From: Candidatus Methanophaga sp. AG-394-G06
Lineage (GTDB): Archaea > Halobacteriota > Syntropharchaeia > Alkanophagales > Methanospirareceae
Direction: 5' to 3'
Assembly (NCBI GenBank): GCA_009903405.1
Contig: PRCZ01000003.1
Coordinates: 15,347-67,847, forward strand
DNA: 52,501 nt
Part shown: positions 11,301 to 50,975 of the stretch, piece after piece
Numbering within the stretch: position 1 is the stretch's first letter
How the letters are laid out: every line of letters begins with the position of its first letter
Notes under the pieces: model-generated
What the model saw: only the letters and a program-made list of their open reading frames with translations
Told to the model about the DNA's origin: nothing
Database searches by the model: none
Translations under genes and position numbers: made by a program

Positions 11301-11419
11301 AAGAAAATAAATTATAGACACAGATTAACGCAGATTAACGCAGAAGAAATTAAATCCGTGTAAATCCGTGTAAATCTGCGTCCTAAATTAAATAGTTAGA
11401 AGTTATACTTTATATACAA
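11301..11419 (+). repeat. Full-length dispersed inverted-repeat element
   Basis: 'aagaaaataaattatagacacagattaacgcagattaacgcagaagaaattaaatccgtgtaaatccgtgtaaatctgcgtcctaaattaaatagttagaagttatactttatatacaa'; reverse-complement copy at 31007-31124, 3' half at 39483-39556. Confidence 0.9.
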
Positions 11420-31006: not shown

Positions 31007-31124
31007 TTGTATATAAAGTATAATTTCTACCTATAAATTTAATTTGTGACGCAGATTTACACAGATTTACACGGATTTAATTTCTTCTGCGTTAATCTGC
31101 GTTAATCTGTGTCAATAATTAATT
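31007..31124 (-). repeat. Full-length dispersed inverted-repeat element, reverse orientation
   Basis: Reverse complement matches 11301-11419 along nearly its whole length, including the 'agaaattatactttatatacaa' end. Confidence 0.9.
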
Positions 31125-34100
31125 TTAGTTGGATATTATGCTTTCTTGTACATCCGGAACCACAACTTTACAATCCTCATAAACCTCAAAGTAGTATCCT
31201 GCCCCAGGCTTTAGCGTTTCCGAGCTGACTAAATATTCCCACTCGCCGTCCTCATACATAAATATGAACAGAGATACTATCCTATTCTGCACTGCATCAT
31301 CAAATGTGTATTCCTCGTAATCGAGTGTAACATTCAGCGCGGCTATCTTAACCTCTTCCGTTGATGGAACACCTATCATATTCCAACCCTTTGACAAGCT
31401 GAGTTCAAATGGCATTTCCACTGCTCGCCCGCTCAGATTCAAACTCGCTTGCTCTTCCGTCTCAACCAAATATGCTTTCCCGGGCTCAATCGCCGTTAAT
31501 GTCGAAGCTTCTGAATTATTCTTAAGGTGATATAACCAACACATATTCGCGGAATCGAAATAGAATACCGCAGAATACGGGACATCATCCAAAACCTGCT
31601 CCACATTGGACTCATAAAGCGCTACTGGACTTGAGAACGTGCTCCAACCTGCTGTTAGGTTCAGCTCCCAACATATCTTAGGCACGAAAACATAACTGAT
31701 TTTAAATTCCCGTGCTTCATACAGCTTTGGCATCGGGTTCATTACAGGGAATCGAACTATCTTCTTGTCTTCTCTATCATCTTCGCCATGCCAAACAATT
31801 CCGTTCATCCCTCTAACAACTACATCCTCTGCCTCTATCGGCAACTCAAGCTCGCCTATCAATGATGGCCATGCACGCTCATTTACTTTCCCCGCCACTA
31901 CTGGCTGCTCATACCAATAGGTCCACTTAGTTGCAGATTCATCAAGTGGTGTTATCGCCATTGTAACTACATACTCATTATCATTCTCACAGTCGCGTGA
32001 GATTATCGCCTCATCTATTGGCTTCTCCGGTATCTTAGGTAGTAATGGCTTAAACATGGGATCTCCTAACAAAATAAACTGCTCTGACGTTTCATTTATC
32101 ATTCCCGTAATTTCTTCCTCCCATCCTGGATACTCATTGAGCATATCCTCCGAATATTCAAGCTTTAACAGATAGAGATTTTTTGCATGTGTTAGTGCTT
32201 CTCCTACCGACATATTACCATAAATCAAGCTTTGATAGAAGGCCTTACTGAAATCCTCTGTTATAAATATCCATGAAAGCGAGTTTGCGCCGATGTAATT
32301 CACACTACCCGCTTCCAAGAATGACATTGCAATTGATCTATCCAAATCAAGAGGCTCGTAGAAGAGTTCATCACTCAACGAATCATAATACCTGCCACCT
32401 TTTAACCTCCCTGAAAGGCATGTGTAGGCATGCGTTGTTTGTGGTGCCAATCTAAGCATTTTCACATCTGTCGCATCTAAATACGGTTCTAACCATGCCC
32501 ATTGATTCAATGCCCAATCAGACTCCGAACCATGATGTAAGAAGAACACGATGTTCTTTCCATTGTTCATCTCCATCATTACTTCCGGACAATTTGCCTT
32601 CTCATAGACCTCAAAATCTACGGATAAGCCCGCATCTTCCAGATATTTGTTGATGTCTCCTGCTGTGGGTGTTTGTGGCGATGCTAAAGAGGGATTGGTA
32701 ATAACTAAAGCTTTCGATTTCCAATCCCCTTTCTCTGCTATCTTTTTGTATGCAAGCGTTCTTGCTATTACGGCTGATGCATCGTATACATCCAAGCCAA
32801 TTATTCGACCGGTTGCAACTTCACGGAAATCATCATCATCTAATTGGATATTGTAATCGCGATATATGTCAAATCCCATAACTGTCAAAATGGGATTATT
32901 TAGGCTATTCAAATAGCCTTCTTGAGCGAGAGCTGCGAGTTTTTCTTGGCTTTTCGGATCATTCAGCGCATCAATAAAGTATTGAGGCAAGTAATCCTCT
33001 ACCAAGCGGTAGTTATCATATGTGACTGATTGATTATACACCTGTCCCGTATCAACAAACGGGACCGATCCAGTACCACCAACAACTATTAGATAGTCCG
33101 GCTTGATTTTATAATCAAAAACGGACTCTTTAAGTCTTTCTTCCACCTCTAGAGGTATAATATCCGATGGGTTCTTGTTTATATCTATAACCGGTGCTTT
33201 CCTCGCCGCTGCGATCTGAGCAGCGGTTAAAGAGAGCTTAGGGATTTTTGTATATGCAAATGCAGTTGTATTAATAGGCGGAAAAAGAGTTGTCACATTT
33301 ATCTCATAGGTTGGCGTGTAACAGCAATCGCTACCATTGCAGCAGTGTATTTCAAATCCCCAGGTTCCAGATTTTGTTAAATTGATCTCTGCTTTACATC
33401 GCCCGGGACCGCCTTCCAACTGCTCCGTACATTCACTGCCCGAATGGGGCGGGTAATATTCAACGTACGTGCCGGATGTATTCAAGGTGACATCCCAGAT
33501 TATCAAAGCTGTGGTTCCCGCTGTGGCATTGACCGGATAAGAGATATTCCTAACATAGTCACAATAAGGTGGTTCTGCTATTATCTTTATCTCCTCATCG
33601 GGCAGGAACTTTTCAATCCCGTCAAAATATATAATGATTCCTTCGTCTATACTCTTTTCCTCGCCGGAATCCATTGCAAAATCCAATACCCCCTCAATAC
33701 TAAGTGTTGCCACCTCATTTGGATTCAAATCACCTATGTCCCACGTGATGTCCGTCCATGCAGGCAATCCAACCCCCACTATCTCTTCTATCTCTTCCGG
33801 TAAGGCTTGCGCACCATAAGACTCCAGGGTTACTTTTGAGTTGCCAGCCATAATAGGAGAAATTGGTGCCACTACAAATGCAAGCAATACAACAATTAAA
33901 GCGATGGTGACTCTCCCTCTACCACCCTTCTTCCTCGTTAGTGTATACGCCATCAAGAACATCAAAATCGCGAAAAGAACTCCGAACCCAGGTATCCTCA
34001 TTGACATACTTACGGTCCCGACAGTTGCGATGGCCGATTTCACGGTCCTTCGCGGTAGTAAGGTATCACGAATGATAATGTTTTCAACCACATCATCGCC

Positions 34101-38895: not shown

Positions 38896-39249
38896 TTTTT
38901 TTGTTTTGTCACCCCCTATCTTTTATACCGCTTTTTTATAGCGTTTCCCTTTATTCTTTGCGCTACATGTAATTTATATACGGTTTAAATTTAGTTCGGG
39001 ATACATAAAAAACTAGGGGTATAATAGTTAGGTATAATAGGCACGTAGTAGGTATGCTGGGATAGAACACTGTGATAAAGGTTCGTAATTGTTTTTGTTC
39101 ATTCCCAGTGGTGGACTCGCATTAAAGCTAACTATAAAAGGGCAAGCATACATAAAAAAGAGAAGCAATCGCTAAATAAGGCTAACCACAAGATTACACA
39201 GATTGAGTCTAAACAACTCTCTCATAAATGCTCAAAATTCAAGAATTTT

Positions 39250-39340
39250 TAAGACACAGATTAACGCTGATTAACACAGATTTAATCATCAGGACTTTAG
39301 AGTAGCATCTGTGTAAATCTGTGAAATCTGTGTCTTTATA
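39250..39340. repeat. Diverged copy of the dispersed inverted-repeat element
   Basis: 'gacacagattaacgctgattaacacagat...atctgtgtaaatctgtgaaatctgtgtc', ~28-bp arms. Confidence 0.8.
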
Positions 39341-39600: not shown

Positions 39601-42177
39601 CTAAACTAAACTAAACTCTATCGTGCCATCGGGAACATCCATCTTTATCTCATCGCCCGCTTTGAACTCGCCATTCAAAATCTTCAGAGACAGAGGATCT
39701 TCTATCATGCGCTGGATCATTCGCTTTATAGGTCGTGCTCCGAATACGGGGTCAAAGCCTTTACGTGCTATCAATTCCTTTACGCTCTCGCTGACAGAGA
39801 TCGTGATTCTTCTTTCGGCGAGTCTATCATGCAGATACTGCAGTTGAATCTCCACTATCTTCTTTATTTCGTCCATGCCCAACTGATTGAAAATGATGAT
39901 CTCATCAATTCGATTCAAGAATTCCGGTCGGAACTGAGTCTTCAGCACTTCCATTACCTTCTCCCGCAGCTCATCTCCGCTATATTCCTGCATAATCGTG
40001 CTCGCGACATTGGAAGTCATGATTTCTACGGTGTTTTTGAAGTTCACTGTCCTTCCATGTCCATCGGTAAGACGGCCATCGTCTAATATCTGAAGCAGCA
40101 GATTGAAGACATCGCCGTGCGCCTTCTCGATCTCATCAAAGAGTACAACGGTATATGGTCTTCTACGAACGGCTTCTGTTAAGAATCCACCCTCGTCATA
40201 CCCTACGTATCCGGGTGGCGCACCGATGAGCCTTGCAATTGAGTGCCGTTCCATAAACTCCGACATATCCATACGCACCATCGCCCGTTCATCATCGAAC
40301 AGGAATTCCGCAAGCGCCTTTGCAAGTTCTGTCTTCCCGACTCCTGTTGGACCCAGGAAGATAAAGGAGCCTATTGGTCTGTTTGGATCGCTAAGACCCG
40401 CTCTTGCTCTTCTAACCGCATTAGAGATCAACGAAATCGCTTCACCCTGGCCCACAACACGCTGTTTCAATCGCTCTTCCATATTAATGAGTTTCTCGGT
40501 ATCACCTTCCAGCATCTTCGATACCGGAATCCCGGACCATTTCGCAATTACCTCTGCAACGTCCTCCTCCTCAACTTCCTCATTTAGCATCTTCTGCTCT
40601 TTCTGTAGCTCTTGCAGTTTCTCATTCTGAATGTCCAGTTCATTTTGCAGTTCGACAAGCGAGCCATAGCGTATTTTTGCTACACGTTCTAAATCGCCAC
40701 TGCGCTCAGCCTGCTGCTCTTCTAACTTCTCCGCGTCCATCTTAGCTTTTATTTCGCGTATACGCTGTATTATCGCCTTTTCGTTCTGCCATCTAGCCTT
40801 GAGCTGGTCGCCGTTTTCCTTTAGTGTCGCCAGTTCATCGCCGAGCTTCACAAGTCGCTCCTTCGAGGCTTTGTCTTTCTCTCGTTTCAGAGCTTGTTCC
40901 TCAATCTCCAGTTGCCTGACTTTACGTTCTATCTCGTCAACTTCGACTGGCATACTGTCTATCTCAGTTCTCAACTTGGCAGCGGCTTCGTCAATGACGT
41001 CAATGGCTTTGTCCGGCAAGAACCTATCGGTGATATATCTATCGGAAAGCACAGCCGCAGCAATCAATGCAGAATCATGAACTCGTACGCCATGATGCAG
41101 TTCGTATCGCTCCTTCAACCCGCGCAGAATCGAGATTGTATCCGCCACGGTGGGTTCACGAACTAAAACCGGCTGGAATCTACGTTCTAGTGCCGCGTCC
41201 TTCTCGATATACTTACGATATTCATCTGTTGTTGTTGCACCCACACATTTGAGTTCGCCACGTGCGAGTGCGGGTTTGAGCATATTTGAGGCATCTATTG
41301 CGCCCTCTGCCGCACCGGCACCGACAACGGTGTGTAATTCGTCTATAAATAGTACTATCTGACCTGCAGCCTCATTAATCTCCTTCAATACCGCCTTTAA
41401 TCGGTCTTCAAACTCGCCCCGGAACTTCGCGCCGGCGATTAAAGCGCCCATGTCGAGGGCTACTACTTGCTTATCCTTTAACGTCTCCGGGACATCGCCG
41501 TTTATTATTCGCTGTGCTAAACCCTCAACTATCGCGGTCTTACCTACTCCCGCATCGCCAATAAGCACAGGATTGTTCTTCCTTCGTCTTGATAGGACCT
41601 GAATAACCCTGCGGATTTCGTCATTCCTGCCTATTACCGGGTCGAGCTTACCAGCACGGGCAAGATCGGTCAAATCGCGCGTGTATCGTTCCAGAGCCTG
41701 ATATTTCTCTTCCGGATTCTGATCTACTATCCGCTGCCCACCACGAATTCCGGTCAATGCTTCGTATATCCGGTCCTTTGTCACGCCCATACCGTTAAGG
41801 ATTTGTGGCGATGTGGGGTCTTCTGCAATAGCGAGAAGCATGTGTTCCGTACTCAGGTACTCATCCTTCATCGCCTGCGCTTCTTGCCATGCCGTTTCCA
41901 GCGTCTTATTCAATCTCGGCGATATGTATATCTGCTCGATCCCACCTCCGCCATGTACCTGCGGTAAGGAACTCAAATGCTCTGCGAGACGCGATTTGAG
42001 CAGGTCAATATCAATGCCTATCTTTTGCAATATCGGGACTGCTATACCTTCTGGTTGCTCTACAAGAGCCAACAATAAATGCTCCACATCTAACTGCTGC
42101 TGATTGTTATTATCTGCGATGTTCTTTGCTTCCTGAAGCGCCTCTTGCGCCTTTAAAGTCAGTTTGTCAAGCCTCAT
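39601..42177 (-). CDS. clpB: ATP-dependent chaperone ClpB
   Basis: Clp_N repeats '[21 protein letters not shown]', two AAA+ modules '[18 protein letters not shown]' and '[19 protein letters not shown]', middle coiled coil, '[36 protein letters not shown]'. Confidence 0.97.
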
Positions 42178-42321
42178 TTACACATACCTCGCTCTTTCTT
42201 TCTATAAATATAGCCATATATGGATTAATAAATATCTAAAACTCTAACACATATATAACTTAAATGAATCCCGTAACGTTGGAAATACTAAAGAACTGAT
42301 TTGCCATAATACCCGTTGAGA

Positions 42322-42413
42322 TGGGTAATCCCTCATAGGTATTCTACAAACCATAGGATTGAGTTGCAGATAAAACACGAAGTGTTTTAGTTTCAATCCC
42401 TTATAGGTATTCC
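42322..42413. CRISPR. Relic mini-CRISPR: two degenerate repeats flanking one 38-nt spacer
   Basis: Repeat 1 'tgggtaatccctcataggtattctacaaac' (42322-42351), spacer 42352-42389, repeat 2 'gtttcaatcccttataggtattcc' (42390-42413); consensus resembles GTTTCAATCCCTTATAGGTATTCTACAAAC-type repeats. Confidence 0.65.
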
Positions 42414-42488
42414 ATGTGTGTTCGGTTAAGTATTTATTTAGGGCCCAGACAACCAAAAGAAAAGATTATCATACAAAAAGTATTTTAT

Positions 42489-42518
42489 GGACACAGATTA
42501 ACGCAGATTAACGCAGAT
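42489..42518 (+). repeat. Left arm of dispersed element
   Basis: 'ggacacagattaacgcagattaacgcagat'. Confidence 0.8.
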
Positions 42519-42721
42519 GAAAATCACAAACTTCTAATTAATTTTGGTCGCTCTGCTCTGTGACGGTAAAACGTCGTATGGAAGACAAAAACAAAAAAGA
42601 TAAAACAGTCTAAATCAGTGTCGGAAATGTGTTGTTATATTATTTTATTTTATGGGTCATTATTTATGTTGAGTCGTACATAACCGAACACCTATGCCTC
42701 ACCTTTAGTTCCACATCAAAA

Positions 42722-43855
42722 TCACATCATTTCCTTTTTGATCCATTTTTTTAAAAAAACATCGGTGATATAGTAAATGTCACTCTCTTTTTCGATAATC
42801 TCTTTCTTCATCAACAGATTGATAGAAGTCTGAACCGAAGAAACCGCCCCCAGGTCATTATCGCGTACAAAATCATGAGAGAAGATTTTTTCACCACCCG
42901 AAGCGGCAATTGCGATAACCATTCGCTTCTGATGCCGAGGCAGAGTATTCCAGATGGTAACATAAACCGCGGATTGACCATCAAGTATCCCGTTCATGGT
43001 CGGCGTAATATCATCAAGTGTGATTTCCCTCTTGTCCAAACAGTTATTCCATAACTCATGACATAAAAATTGGACATTATACGGGTAGTTCTCTGTCACA
43101 TCCAAAATTTCGTCCAGCACACCCGCCTCTACCGAAAAACCTGTTCTTGAGAACTTATCCACTAAGAAGCTTTTGAATTCTTCTACTGGTATCTTACTGA
43201 GCGGCATTACCTTGCCCATATTGTAAAAAGCTCTTCGTTTATTGGTGACCATATCAGAGATTATGTGCCTCCGACTGCCCGCAAATAGATAGCTTACGAG
43301 ATCATGATGTTGAAAACATGCTCGCATACCCTTCTCTATCGCATCTCCATTAAAATTCGCGATTTCCTGAAATTCATCAAAAACCACGATAAAACTCTTG
43401 TTCCTCTTCTTGGCTATTCGCTGCGGTGCCTCATAGACTTCGTCGAACAGTTTACCAGCACTTTTTTCCTTCACTTCATAATCTAGTTCTATCGAGGGGC
43501 TGCCGTCTGAGCGGATAACCACCTTGGGACGGATGTTAGGGAAGAATTCCCTCACGAGTCTGTTAAATCTTTCTATTTTTGTTTCCGCCGCCTGGGATAC
43601 TACCTCTGTGTACAGCTCCAGCAAGCTTTTAAACGACGATACTTTAAAAAGGTCTATGTAAGCGGTATAAAAACCTTCCTTCTGTAATTTATCAAGCGCA
43701 TTCATGATTAAGGATGTTTTTCCGTATCTTCTGGGTGAGATAAGGAAGATAGTCCGACCTGCTTTTAGGTCCCTTGTGAGTTCTGCCAGCTCTGTTTCCC
43801 TGTCTGCAAAGTCTTCTCCCGTTACCACTTCGCCATACCTGAATGGGTTCTTCAT
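42722..43855 (-). CDS. Archaeal AAA ATPase (ATPase_2 family) with C-terminal winged helix
   Basis: 'FADRETELAELTRDLKAGRTIFLISPRRYGKTSLIMNAL', 'SFIVVFDEFQEIANF', 'YLFAGSRRHIISDMV'. Confidence 0.9.
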   Translation of the reverse strand: MKNPFRYGEVVTGEDFADRETELAELTRDLKAGRTIFLISPRRYGKTSLIMNALDKLQKEGFYTAYIDLFKVSSFKSLLELYTEVVSQAAETKIERFNRLVREFFPNIRPKVVIRSDGSPSIELDYEVKEKSAGKLFDEVYEAPQRIAKKRNKSFIVVFDEFQEIANFNGDAIEKGMRACFQHHDLVSYLFAGSRRHIISDMVTNKRRAFYNMGKVMPLSKIPVEEFKSFLVDKFSRTGFSVEAGVLDEILDVTENYPYNVQFLCHELWNNCLDKREITLDDITPTMNGILDGQSAVYVTIWNTLPRHQKRMVIAIAASGGEKIFSHDFVRDNDLGAVSSVQTSINLLMKKEIIEKESDIYYITDVFLKKWIKKEMM

Positions 43856-43935
43856 TTTTAGTCCTTCATTTACATTTGTATTATAATGTTATTATGTATT
43901 TATACGTAACGTGCATGCACATAACCACAACTGTT

Positions 43936-44203
43936 TTATCCTCTTCCATCATTTAGCACCGCCACCATCCCAAACCCCTGCGAATTCTTCGCTCCTATAC
44001 CGCAATCATAACTCATATCGCCCCTGCAACCGAGAGAAGGTGAACATCTTGAAACTTCGCTTCTCGAACATGAACCCCTGATCATGTAAGAATTCACCAA
44101 GCTCCGGCGTGATATTAGCGTATAAAAAACCCTGGACAGTATAATTATACTGTATCGGCAGTGATAAGCGCTTCTCACAACCAAACTCCAGCGTTATCCG
44201 CAT
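43936..44203 (-). pseudogene. cas6: cas6 remnant: N- and C-terminal segments joined across an internal deletion
   Basis: 'MRITLEFGCEKRLSLPIQYNYTVQGFLYANITPELGEFLHDQGFMFEKRSFKMFTFSRLQGRYEL*' followed in another frame by 'YDCGIGAKNSQGFGMVAVLNDGRG*' (Cas6 Gly-rich C-terminus). Confidence 0.8.
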
Positions 44204-44310
44204 GATGCGTTAACATGTCACGCAACAAATATAAACTTATAGGGTACAAAGAATTATTAAGTTTTTACGGGTTCATAGAATCAAAATTAAAAAAGCAATA
44301 CACTACTCAA

Positions 44311-44349
44311 GATTAAATCTGTGTTAATCAGCGTTAATCTGTGTCTTAA
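44311..44349 (-). repeat. Arm of dispersed element, reverse orientation
   Basis: 'gattaaatctgtgttaatcagcgttaatctgtgtctt'. Confidence 0.75.
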
Positions 44350-44511
44350 AAATCCTTGGAAAATGATATATATGATACAGTTCGAGTAAATTATTATTTG
44401 TGAGTTCCCTCAAGCTAAATCCGTGTCTATAATTTGGGTATATCAATTAAGAATGGATGGACATAATGGGCGAGTTCCACATCTAAAAAATCGATTTCTT
44501 CTTATCTTATC

Positions 44512-47274
44512 CTACGCCCCCATCCGCACCCAACTCACCCCATCCTCATCTTCCGTCACCCTAAGCACATACTCCATATAATCCTTAACCTCCTCGATAT
44601 GCGTAATAAGGAATATCTGCCGGAACTTCTTCGATAGCTCATTCAGTGCAGTTATGATATTCCGCTTCCGGAGCGCGTCCTGCGACCCGAAAATCTCATC
44701 GAGGATAATGAAATTAGTCTGAATCGCACTCCGTTCAGAGACGACAGCGGAAATCGCAAGCCGTAGACACAGATTCGCTAGGTCCTCCTCTCCGCCTGAG
44801 AACCGGTTTATCGCATACGGCGTCCCTTCATCATAGATGAACACATCATAGTTCTCATCCAGCTCCAACTTGCTGTATTTACCATCTGTTAACCGGCGCA
44901 GCATATCAGATGCGTAATCAGAAAGCATCGGCCGAATCATACCCACCATATACACCTTGAAGTCGTTCATTAACCGCTCAAGCAAGCTGAGATACATTAG
45001 CTCTGTCTCTTCCTTCGCTTTATCCGCCAGTAACCGTTCCTGCTCCGCTATATCCGCCAGCACATGCTCTATCTCCCTGCACACGTTCTCGAACTCATTC
45101 CTCTTCGCCATAAGCTTCAGCTTCATTTCGTTCAGTTCATTATTCTTACGTTCGTAGCCTACCTTCAACGCAACAAACGCCATTTTGTCAAACGCCAAAT
45201 CATCCATCTGCCGCTTCAAAGCTCTTATATCGGCTGCAATCTCGCGTTCCAACTCGCTAAGCAGTTGCAAGTTATCTTTTACTTCTTTTGCTCGCTCTAC
45301 CTCTGCTCGTAACCCGATTATCTCGCGATATATCACTTCAAGGTCTTTTAACGTTGCGATAACCGACTTGTAGACGTTATTATCGAACTCCACAGCCATA
45401 ACAGGCGCCAAATCGGCATTTATCTGCTCCAATTCAGTGTTCCAGCGCACTAATTCACGCCGTTCATGTGTTATCTTTAGCTCGAATTCCTTCTTCGCGC
45501 TAACTTTCTTATCAAGCTCGTTTAGCTTCGTGCTAACCGCTTTATAGACCTTCTCGTCAAATTCCACAACTTGAAAAGGCCTCAAAGCTGTTAAAATACG
45601 CGCCAATTCCACGCGCCATAAGTTCAATTCCTTATCTTCCTGCTCTAGCTTTACGTCCAGTGCACGCATCTCAGTCATCCGAGTATCCAGCTCATTCGCC
45701 ACCTTATTATGTGTATCTTCCTCTCGCGTCTTAGAACCGAGCTCATCCTTATTTTCCTTGTATTCGTTATACAGTGTGTAATAATTCGCCTTCTTTGCTT
45801 CTGTCTCATCATTAAGCTTTTTTAGCAACGCTTCGTAATGCGTGCCCAATTGCCTCTCGCACATCGGACATTCGCCATCATGACCCAAAGCCACGATCTT
45901 CTTCCTTTTCGCCATGCGCTCTTTTACATCATTCTTGAGTTCTAACGCAGACGATTTAAGCGCGCCGATAGAAGAAATTAAACTCTCCTTTTGCGTCCTT
46001 AGCCCTTCTAGCTTCTGTTTCGTCGTTTGCAACCGCTCCTTTAGCCCCGTAAATTCTTGCCGGTCTTCTATCAGCCGCTTTGTTCTCGTCTCTCGTGCCC
46101 CGATCTCCGTCATTGTCTTCTCTTTTTGTCTCGTTAATTCTAGCTTCTGCTGAAATCTTACTCTAAGCGCATCCAGCTCGTCTTTGTGCTGCGTCTGCGC
46201 TTCAAAGGCAGCGTCTACACCCTCAAATCCTGATAAATTAGTGGTCAATGCTTTTAGCTCGCCTTCACGTCTCGTTATCTCTTGCGTGATTTTATCTTTA
46301 CGTTTCAATAGCTCATGCTTCCGTTGATATTTTTCACGCAACGCATCCAGCTCCTCCTTATCCGCTCTAAACTGGAAATACTGGACCTCTTTATCCAGAA
46401 GACCATCAAGCCGTTTCTTCTTCGTCTGCAAATCCGTTAGCTCTTTCTCTTTCTCGTCTTTACGCTTCTTCGTATTCTCTAGGTCACTTCTTCGTGCGCC
46501 CATAGTATTGCTCAATTCCATGTATTGCTCGTATTTCTTCGTTGCCGATTCCAGTTCCTCTTTCGCAACTGCGGTCTCTTTCTCTTTAGTTACCTTATCC
46601 GTTTCTAGCTCGTTTATACTCGGTATGAGCTTCTCTTTCTGCTTCTCCCGCTCTTCGTTCCTACTTTTAAATATTTCAAGCTTCTTTATGCCGTCTTTAT
46701 CAACAGTTGCGGTTTTTATACCCTCTATCCGTTTCTCTTTACCTCGCTTATCCACCCGTATTGCCTCTATACTGTTTTCTATCCGCTCGATGCCGAGCAT
46801 ACGAAGCACGAGCTTTTTTCGCTCTGCTGCTTTCATTAATGATAGCGCGTTCAATTCCTTCTGTCGTGCGAAAACAGAAGTGAAGAAGGACTGGTAATCC
46901 ATACCTATTCTGGCCTCTATGGCTCCTGAGACCTCGTCAGCGTTGTTTGTTATCTGATTGCCATTGATAACGAGACTTGCTTTCGGCACTAAATTCTTGC
47001 CTGCCATCTCCCTTACTACTCTATACGCATCTCCATCCAGTTCGAACTCTAAGGCAACGCGGCAGGATTCACTATGCGGTGCGCCCTCCCGCTTTATAAG
47101 TTCTTTTGTTGTTCGTGCCGCATGATGCCCGAACAGGACCCAGCCGATCGACTCTATTAACGTTGTCTTCCCAACGCCGTTTAGACCTATAATGCCTATA
47201 ACACCATCTGGGATTTCAACATTCACGTTCTTATATTTACGGTAATTCCTCAGTGTTAGCGTCTTTAATAGCAT
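44512..47274 (-). CDS. rad50: Rad50-like SMC ATPase with zinc hook
   Basis: 'MLLKTLTLRNYRKYKNVNVEIPDGVIGIIGLNGVGKTTLIESIGWVLFG', zinc hook 'GECPMCERQLG', C-terminal 'FSGGEEDLANLCLRLAISA', 'IILDEIFGSQD'; internal ATG at 47274 preferred, longest ORF starts at 47511. Confidence 0.9.
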   Translation of the reverse strand: MLLKTLTLRNYRKYKNVNVEIPDGVIGIIGLNGVGKTTLIESIGWVLFGHHAARTTKELIKREGAPHSESCRVALEFELDGDAYRVVREMAGKNLVPKASLVINGNQITNNADEVSGAIEARIGMDYQSFFTSVFARQKELNALSLMKAAERKKLVLRMLGIERIENSIEAIRVDKRGKEKRIEGIKTATVDKDGIKKLEIFKSRNEEREKQKEKLIPSINELETDKVTKEKETAVAKEELESATKKYEQYMELSNTMGARRSDLENTKKRKDEKEKELTDLQTKKKRLDGLLDKEVQYFQFRADKEELDALREKYQRKHELLKRKDKITQEITRREGELKALTTNLSGFEGVDAAFEAQTQHKDELDALRVRFQQKLELTRQKEKTMTEIGARETRTKRLIEDRQEFTGLKERLQTTKQKLEGLRTQKESLISSIGALKSSALELKNDVKERMAKRKKIVALGHDGECPMCERQLGTHYEALLKKLNDETEAKKANYYTLYNEYKENKDELGSKTREEDTHNKVANELDTRMTEMRALDVKLEQEDKELNLWRVELARILTALRPFQVVEFDEKVYKAVSTKLNELDKKVSAKKEFELKITHERRELVRWNTELEQINADLAPVMAVEFDNNVYKSVIATLKDLEVIYREIIGLRAEVERAKEVKDNLQLLSELEREIAADIRALKRQMDDLAFDKMAFVALKVGYERKNNELNEMKLKLMAKRNEFENVCREIEHVLADIAEQERLLADKAKEETELMYLSLLERLMNDFKVYMVGMIRPMLSDYASDMLRRLTDGKYSKLELDENYDVFIYDEGTPYAINRFSGGEEDLANLCLRLAISAVVSERSAIQTNFIILDEIFGSQDALRKRNIITALNELSKKFRQIFLITHIEEVKDYMEYVLRVTEDEDGVSWVRMGA

Positions 47275-47511
47275 ATCTATATATTCATAACAATTCTTTG
47301 TGTAATAAGTTTTTACCCGCTTCCAGGCTTTATAAGGTGCATTAGTTTCAGGTAAACTTATATTTGATACATTTTTCTTTTCCGTGTCTAATGTATGTGC
47401 GGCTATCGCCAGAGAAGGCTCTCTATCCTCATGTTGGTAGAAGGTAACTCCTTCGGAATCAAAGAATGGTATACATCCGAGAGGGCGATGAAAATACTCT
47501 GTCTCATTCAA
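47275..47511 (-). pseudogene. Duplicated fragment of the neighbouring gene (47552-48508) in frame with rad50
   Basis: 'NETEYFHR...EGVTFYQHEDREPSLAIAAHTLDTEKKNVSNISL' aligns with 'NETEGFYHHEESGFVSTTPEDVIFCRYEGKGPSLQITADSLATEEGNVSDVRL'. Confidence 0.65.
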
Positions 47512-50904: not shown

Positions 50905-50936
50905 TGTCTTGTCATGTGTGTTTGGTTAAGTATTTA

Positions 50937-50970
50937 CTGACACAGATTAACACTGATTAACGCAGATAAA
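50937..50970 (+). repeat. Left arm of dispersed element
   Basis: 'ctgacacagattaacactgattaacgcagat'. Confidence 0.75.
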
Positions 50971-50975
50971 AAAAT

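Follow-up and report, generated by a model that had tools for sequence, protein, structure and literature searches.

Vestigial CRISPR-Cas loci are a known phenomenon, as in Haloquadratum walsbyi HBSQ001, where a residual CRISPR with a MITE is present without cas genes (PMC3119063), and insertions of IS elements and MITEs into cas genes have been broadly documented (PMC10359306). Similar arrangements of repeats are also found in the CreA genes of CreTA modules, where two repeats, one of them degenerate, lie close to a cas6 gene (PMC8501985). The CRISPR arrays of ANME-1 archaea have been used for virus discovery (PMC9894754). The locus described here is from a 1.53-Mb genome in 119 contigs (75% complete), the same-family relatives of which belong to the Methanophagales, that is, the methane-eating ANME-1 archaea; the window, meaning the whole stretch of 52,501 nucleotides that was analysed, is part of contig C53. 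It adds an unusually legible case to the vestigial CRISPR-Cas systems already known, and the locus is best explained, with a probability of roughly 0.87, as the scar of an ANME-1 CRISPR-Cas locus in which cas6 suffered a 473-bp deletion and the rest was removed by a deletion with a MITE at its edge.

The array remnant and its genomic setting

The relics (Table 1) are bounded by two minus-strand genes, one clpB-like (39601-42177) and the other rad50/SMC-like (44512-47511). On the clpB side, homology to same-genus relatives ends at 42263, where the CRISPR island has its outer edge, and on the rad50 side it ends at 44517, and thus positions 42264-44516 represent a lineage-specific island. An undeleted version of the clpB-rad50 locus was seen in no relative, and no empty site is visible, the same-genus genomes having the two genes on different contigs. 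The DNA identity to genome G039, a member of another ANME-1 genus, is 92% for the cas6-ATPase segment (42722-44240) as compared with 73% for rad50 and 81% for clpB, and this difference points to a probable transfer of the island between ANME-1 genera that preceded its decay.

Table 1. Features of the relic locus, in window coordinates
Feature	Position	Strand	Evidence
ClpB upstream region, shared with same-genus relatives	42178..42263	-	blastn to G029 and G028 ClpB loci, 88-91%
Terminal CRISPR repeat, leader-distal, degenerate at GTTTC side, TGGGTAATCCCTCATAGGTATTCTACAAAC	42322..42351	-	6 mismatches to intact G034 repeat
Single 38-nt spacer	42352..42389	-	unique in genome, absent from 52 relatives
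CRISPR repeat cut after 23 nt, GTTTCAATCCCTTATAGGTATTC	42390..42412	-	23/23 identical to G034 consensus repeat
284-bp MITE, ends CATG.GTGTTCGGTTA...TAACCGAACAC.TATG, without target-site duplication	42413..42696	+	full-length relatives 79-87%
ATPase 3' flank, conserved exactly to MITE edge	42697..42721	-	blastn to G043 covers 42697-43924, 87%
Intact ATPase_2-family gene, 377 aa	42722..43855	-	PF01637 E=2.4e-11
cas6 relic, C-terminal Gly-rich end MSYDCGIGAKNSQGFGMVAVLNDGRG, shifted frame	43936..44016	-	PF01881; 85% to G035/G039 Cas6
Deletion junction TGAGTTA	44009..44015	-	DNA alignment with G039 and G035
cas6 relic, N-terminal 65 codons, open frame then TGA	44009..44203	-	92% to G039/G035 Cas6
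cas6 upstream region, conserved with G039/G035	44204..44240	-	blastn

The initial annotation described two copies of a CRISPR-like repeat around a unique 38-nt segment, an arrangement that was confirmed, with the second copy found to be truncated. An 18-nt repeat core, AATCCCTYATAGGTATTC, is found at 42327 and 42395 and at no other position in the whole genome, and dinucleotide shuffles of the window yield a mean of 0.13 matches at up to 3 mismatches. The core is carried by four of the 53 genomes of the order, counting the source genome itself. In the same-family genome G034 (ANME-1 GoMg2), the intact repeat, GTTTCAATCCCTTATAGGTATTCTACAAAC, forms a 26-copy array with spacers of 36-37 nt on contig C211, while on contig C59 a 7-copy array, one copy of which is degenerate and terminal, adjoins genes read as cas2, cas1, cas4 and cas3, the Cas3 being verified by profile. 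The period of the G034 arrays is 66-67 nt. Genome G028, of the same genus as the window, possesses a 2-copy array beside cas7, cas5, cas3, cas4 and a type I-B Cas1. Judged by its sequence, the 30-mer is a genuine CRISPR repeat, being close or identical to one that forms regular arrays with unique spacers, and that it would be found beside cas genes in relatives was borne out in G034 and G028. The form of the 30-mer first reported, however, is that of the degenerate terminal repeat, whereas the true consensus begins with GTTTC.

At the G028 and G034 loci, the leader end is the end of the array nearest to cas2, and the repeat at the far end is degenerate on the GTTTC side. The terminal repeats of G028 and of G034 C59 are degenerate on the same side as the first repeat of the window, which reads TGGGTAATCCC... 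and has likewise degenerated on the GTTTC side. Because of this same-sided degeneration, the window can be said to keep the oldest, leader-distal end of an array, comprising the terminal repeat, one spacer and the 23 nt that are left of the repeat after it. No leader adjoins the array, and the place where it would be expected is occupied by the MITE and the ATPase flank. A third, very decayed copy had been suspected at 42260-42288, where the best alignment to the repeat extends over 9 nt with a score of 7, a value that random 51-nt stretches of the window reach in 27% of cases, and where the spacing of 60 nt does not fit the period of 66-68 nt; this candidate was discarded as a chance-level similarity.

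With regard to the spacer, no self-target was found within 3 mismatches in the source genome or in the 52 relatives. The protospacer search that had been proposed for it, conducted with two 21-mers and two 17-mers against viral contigs and by blastn of the full spacer against phages, returned only chance-level partial matches of at most 28/38.

Short arrays recur in the genus of the window, as the G028 array (L032 9082-9176) consists of only two repeats and one spacer in a genome with a type I-B cas operon. In the 26-copy array of G034 (L033 9689-11352), three spacers are duplicated within the array (for instance, ATGGTATAAGCGTTTCAAAAACC...), indicative of internal duplication of array units.

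The cas6 relic and the ATPase gene

The region 43936-44203 had been proposed to encode a Cas6 remnant with both ends recognisable and the middle missing, and this holds up, as the translation matches Cas6 profiles as well as intact Cas6 proteins (92% identity). The N-terminal part matches PF21350 (E=4e-4) and the C-terminal part PF01881 (E=1.2e-6) and TIGR01877 (E=4.6e-7), such that the N-terminal domain and the C-terminal Gly-rich loop are both present; the uninterrupted open frame of some 246 aa is not, having been broken by the deletion and a frameshift. In an alignment with the intact cas6 genes of G039 and G035, the DNA is collinear at about 91-92% on either side of one gap, with the two blocks sharing TGAGTTA. 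The relic corresponds to the gene of intact relatives minus exactly 473 bp between the direct repeats TGAGCTA and TGGGTTA (G039), an arrangement that is explained by one slip between 7-nt near-identical direct repeats, and the reading frame is lost because 473 is not a multiple of three. Relative to G039 and G035, dN/dS is 0.06-0.17 for the two cas6 fragments, which comprise only about 65 and 21 codons, and 0.15 for the ATPase gene. As the values for the fragments are low and similar to that of the ATPase gene, most of the divergence in cas6 would have arisen while the gene was functional, which suggests that the deletion is young relative to the split from G039 and G035.

The ATPase gene is positioned directly after cas6 in G039 and G035, whose contigs end inside it, and in G043, where cas6 and the ATPase gene are followed by MntA/HepT genes and cas3. 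G023 has the gene between cas4 and cas1, with a 36-repeat array after it. Because of its position next to cas6 in three relatives and between cas4 and cas1 in a fourth, the ATPase gene is part of the ancestral CRISPR-cas locus, and not a newcomer in the window. Among 80 loci homologous to the ATPase gene, a convincing array was found only at that of G023, beyond which a simple detector gave five candidate hits, and most non-ANME relatives of the gene have no array nearby.

MntA/HepT toxin-antitoxin pairs lie within the CRISPR-cas loci of two ANME-1 genomes (L142 5448-6220 and L124 2467-3251). The ATPase gene of G023 is split over two contigs (L142 14690-14888 and L143 99-1042), and the two parts overlap by 9 bp (nt 191-199), as is typical where an element has inserted. 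The G035 contig (L125) ends at the same nt 199, and the same site may have been hit in two genera, G023 and G035.

As had been noted from the sequence, no other cas gene lies in the window, the genes of the relatives' loci having been used for the tblastn search. The genome-wide search covered Cas1, Cas3 and Cas6. In the 75%-complete genome, it found no Cas1 (the same search was positive in nine of 14 control genomes), no Cas3 over the curated cut-off (which G028, G034, G023 and G043 all exceed) and no intact cas6, the sole Cas6 match being the relic; a second array was likewise not found. With cas6 broken, the window lacks a functional type I-B set (intact cas6, cas3, cas5, cas7, cas8 and cas1/cas2). 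At 75% completeness, loss of the system is likely, but the missing contigs may contain further cas genes or arrays.

The mobile element beside the array

The end of the second repeat is not due to decay but is the edge of a MITE. The repeat stops at TATTC and is followed by CATGTGTGTTCGGTTAAGTA, which corresponds to the ends of a short non-coding element. This element is a MITE of the GTGTTCGGTTAAGTA family, as evidenced by terminal inverted repeats and by full-length homologues in G034, G030 and G037, which measure about 250-315 bp (79-87%). Many of the copies in these three genomes are flanked by duplications of 9-10 bp (for instance, AAAAAGTATT at L256), the duplication of the target being present at G034 and G030 copies of the family. 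The MITE of the window is full length, lacks a target duplication and has two flanks that are unlike each other, the left being the CRISPR repeat and the right, from 42697, the normal 3' flank of the ATPase gene. The absence of the duplication is read as a sign of later deletion and, together with the nature of the two flanks, suggests that the MITE probably marks the deletion of the leader, the array body and the other cas genes. Mismatched flanks would be expected if two MITEs had recombined or if a deletion had started at one MITE, and a single MITE insertion with a later deletion next to it would look no different from MITE-MITE recombination.

An IS-like element with the terminal repeats of the window MITE interrupts the last repeat of the 26-copy array on G034 C211 (L033 11350-11391). 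Its sequence resembles the end of a transposase gene, and it lies one nucleotide further on than the insertion in the window. Because the flanking contexts otherwise differ, the G034 element probably inserted independently. Two genera have elements with the same ends no more than 1 nt apart in their position on the repeat (42413 in the window; about 11372 in G034 C211). It is doubtful that this ANME-1 transposon/MITE family prefers CRISPR repeats as insertion targets, but if it does, CRISPR arrays would be recurrent hot spots of immunity loss driven by mobile elements.

A dispersed repeat resembling GATTAACGCAGATTAACGCAGAT occurs in the window at 42467-42518, 44317-44368, 11304-11349, 31081-31147, 39241-39281 and 50928-50972, and is present inside the MITE, outside it and in relatives.

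Proposed decay of the locus, rival explanations and known systems

The ancestral island would have been located between rad50 and clpB, with the order, on the minus strand, of cas6, the ATPase gene, the effector and adaptation cas genes, the leader, the array and the terminal repeat. Judging by relatives, the system was type I-B-like, and by analogy with other genera the lost cas genes would have been situated between the ATPase gene and the array. The order and polarity of the relics fit the loci of relatives, with the degenerate end of the array outermost as in G028 and G034. One lesion, shown by alignment, is the deletion between direct repeats, through which cas6 lost its middle part and its reading frame. 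The other would have begun with insertion of the MITE in the last-but-one repeat of the array, followed by a deletion from the MITE to the ATPase 3' flank that took with it the leader, the array body and the remaining cas genes, most likely through recombination between two MITE copies, as the missing target duplication and two unrelated flanks imply. The remnant would be incapable of spacer acquisition, transcript processing and interference, with the ATPase gene a surviving intact passenger.

Two readings of the locus had been offered initially, one being a locus near the end of decay and the other an orphan mini-array, whose repeat-spacer unit would be transcribed and processed in trans by a Cas6 from elsewhere. 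Decay is the better fit, as the search of the 75%-complete genome turned up no cas1, no Cas3 above the curated cut-off and no intact cas6 that could serve as processing enzyme. The second repeat does retain its complete ATTGAAAC handle side, and such repeats are shared across ANME-1, with overlap of CRISPR repeats between ANME-1 lineages (PMC9894754); however, it lacks the other 7 nt (TACAAAC), the terminal repeat has no handle and the leader is gone, making a functional mini-array highly improbable. A CreTA-type antitoxin RNA, in which two diverged repeats and a spacer-like segment guide Cascade to the promoter of a nearby toxin RNA, is scarcely credible despite the resemblance to CreA genes, since no neighbouring promoter offers the seed pairing that such an RNA requires (nt 1-5 and 7-11, with a TTC PAM). 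The best seed match in 41300-44600 is 7 nt, equalled by 40% of shuffled spacers and not preceded by TTC, and neither the Cascade genes nor cas6 were found intact; for want of a PAM-bearing seed match to a neighbouring toxin promoter, the CreTA module was rejected.

It is also unlikely that no large deletion took place and that the island always consisted of cas6, the ATPase gene and a short array, with effectors elsewhere. At the contig ends of G039 and G035, cas6-ATPase pairs do occur apart from other cas genes, but in G043 and G023 the locus continues with cas3 and other cas genes, and the leader end of the array is missing in the window, its place flanked by the MITE edge. Alternatively, the dispersed MITE may have caused unrelated places to be joined in the assembly, such that the array and the cas6-ATPase segment were not neighbours in the cell. 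Such a chimera is very unlikely, given that the longest exact match to another MITE copy of the same genome is 55 nt (six loci examined), that the cas6 deletion lies outside the MITE, and that a random join would rarely place cas6, the ATPase gene and the array, each a part of CRISPR loci, in the correct order and polarity, even though MITE copies are numerous in the genome and the copy in the window has no target duplication.

Loss of CRISPR-Cas is usually inferred from absence. In the scar described here, the lesions are legible base by base, one a microhomology deletion in cas6 and the other a deletion of the rest edged by a mobile element. The host lineage is uncultured, and research on its virus ecology relies mainly on CRISPR spacers; the locus, which changes no principle, is a useful example and counsels caution where an array or a cas6 gene counts as evidence of immunity.

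The locus shares with CreTA (PMC8501985) two partly degenerate repeats around one spacer-like segment near cas6, but differs in the absence of a seed-matched promoter and in that cas genes were not found intact. Compared with the Methanophagales type I-B loci (G028 C19, G023 C106/C64 and G034 C59), the repeat family, the Cas6 family and the gene polarity are the same, whereas those loci have complete operons and leaders and the window only scars. As in the surveyed cases of mobile elements that disable CRISPR-Cas (PMC10359306), an element is involved, although in that survey the insertions are into cas genes, and in the window the element has entered a CRISPR repeat at a place where there is also a large deletion. 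HBSQ001 (PMC3119063) is likewise an archaeal CRISPR remnant with a MITE in the array, and has an intact counterpart in a relative. In HBSQ001, however, five spacers and the leader survive without any cas relic, whereas the window keeps the leader-distal end and a broken cas6, with the MITE at the edge of the deletion.
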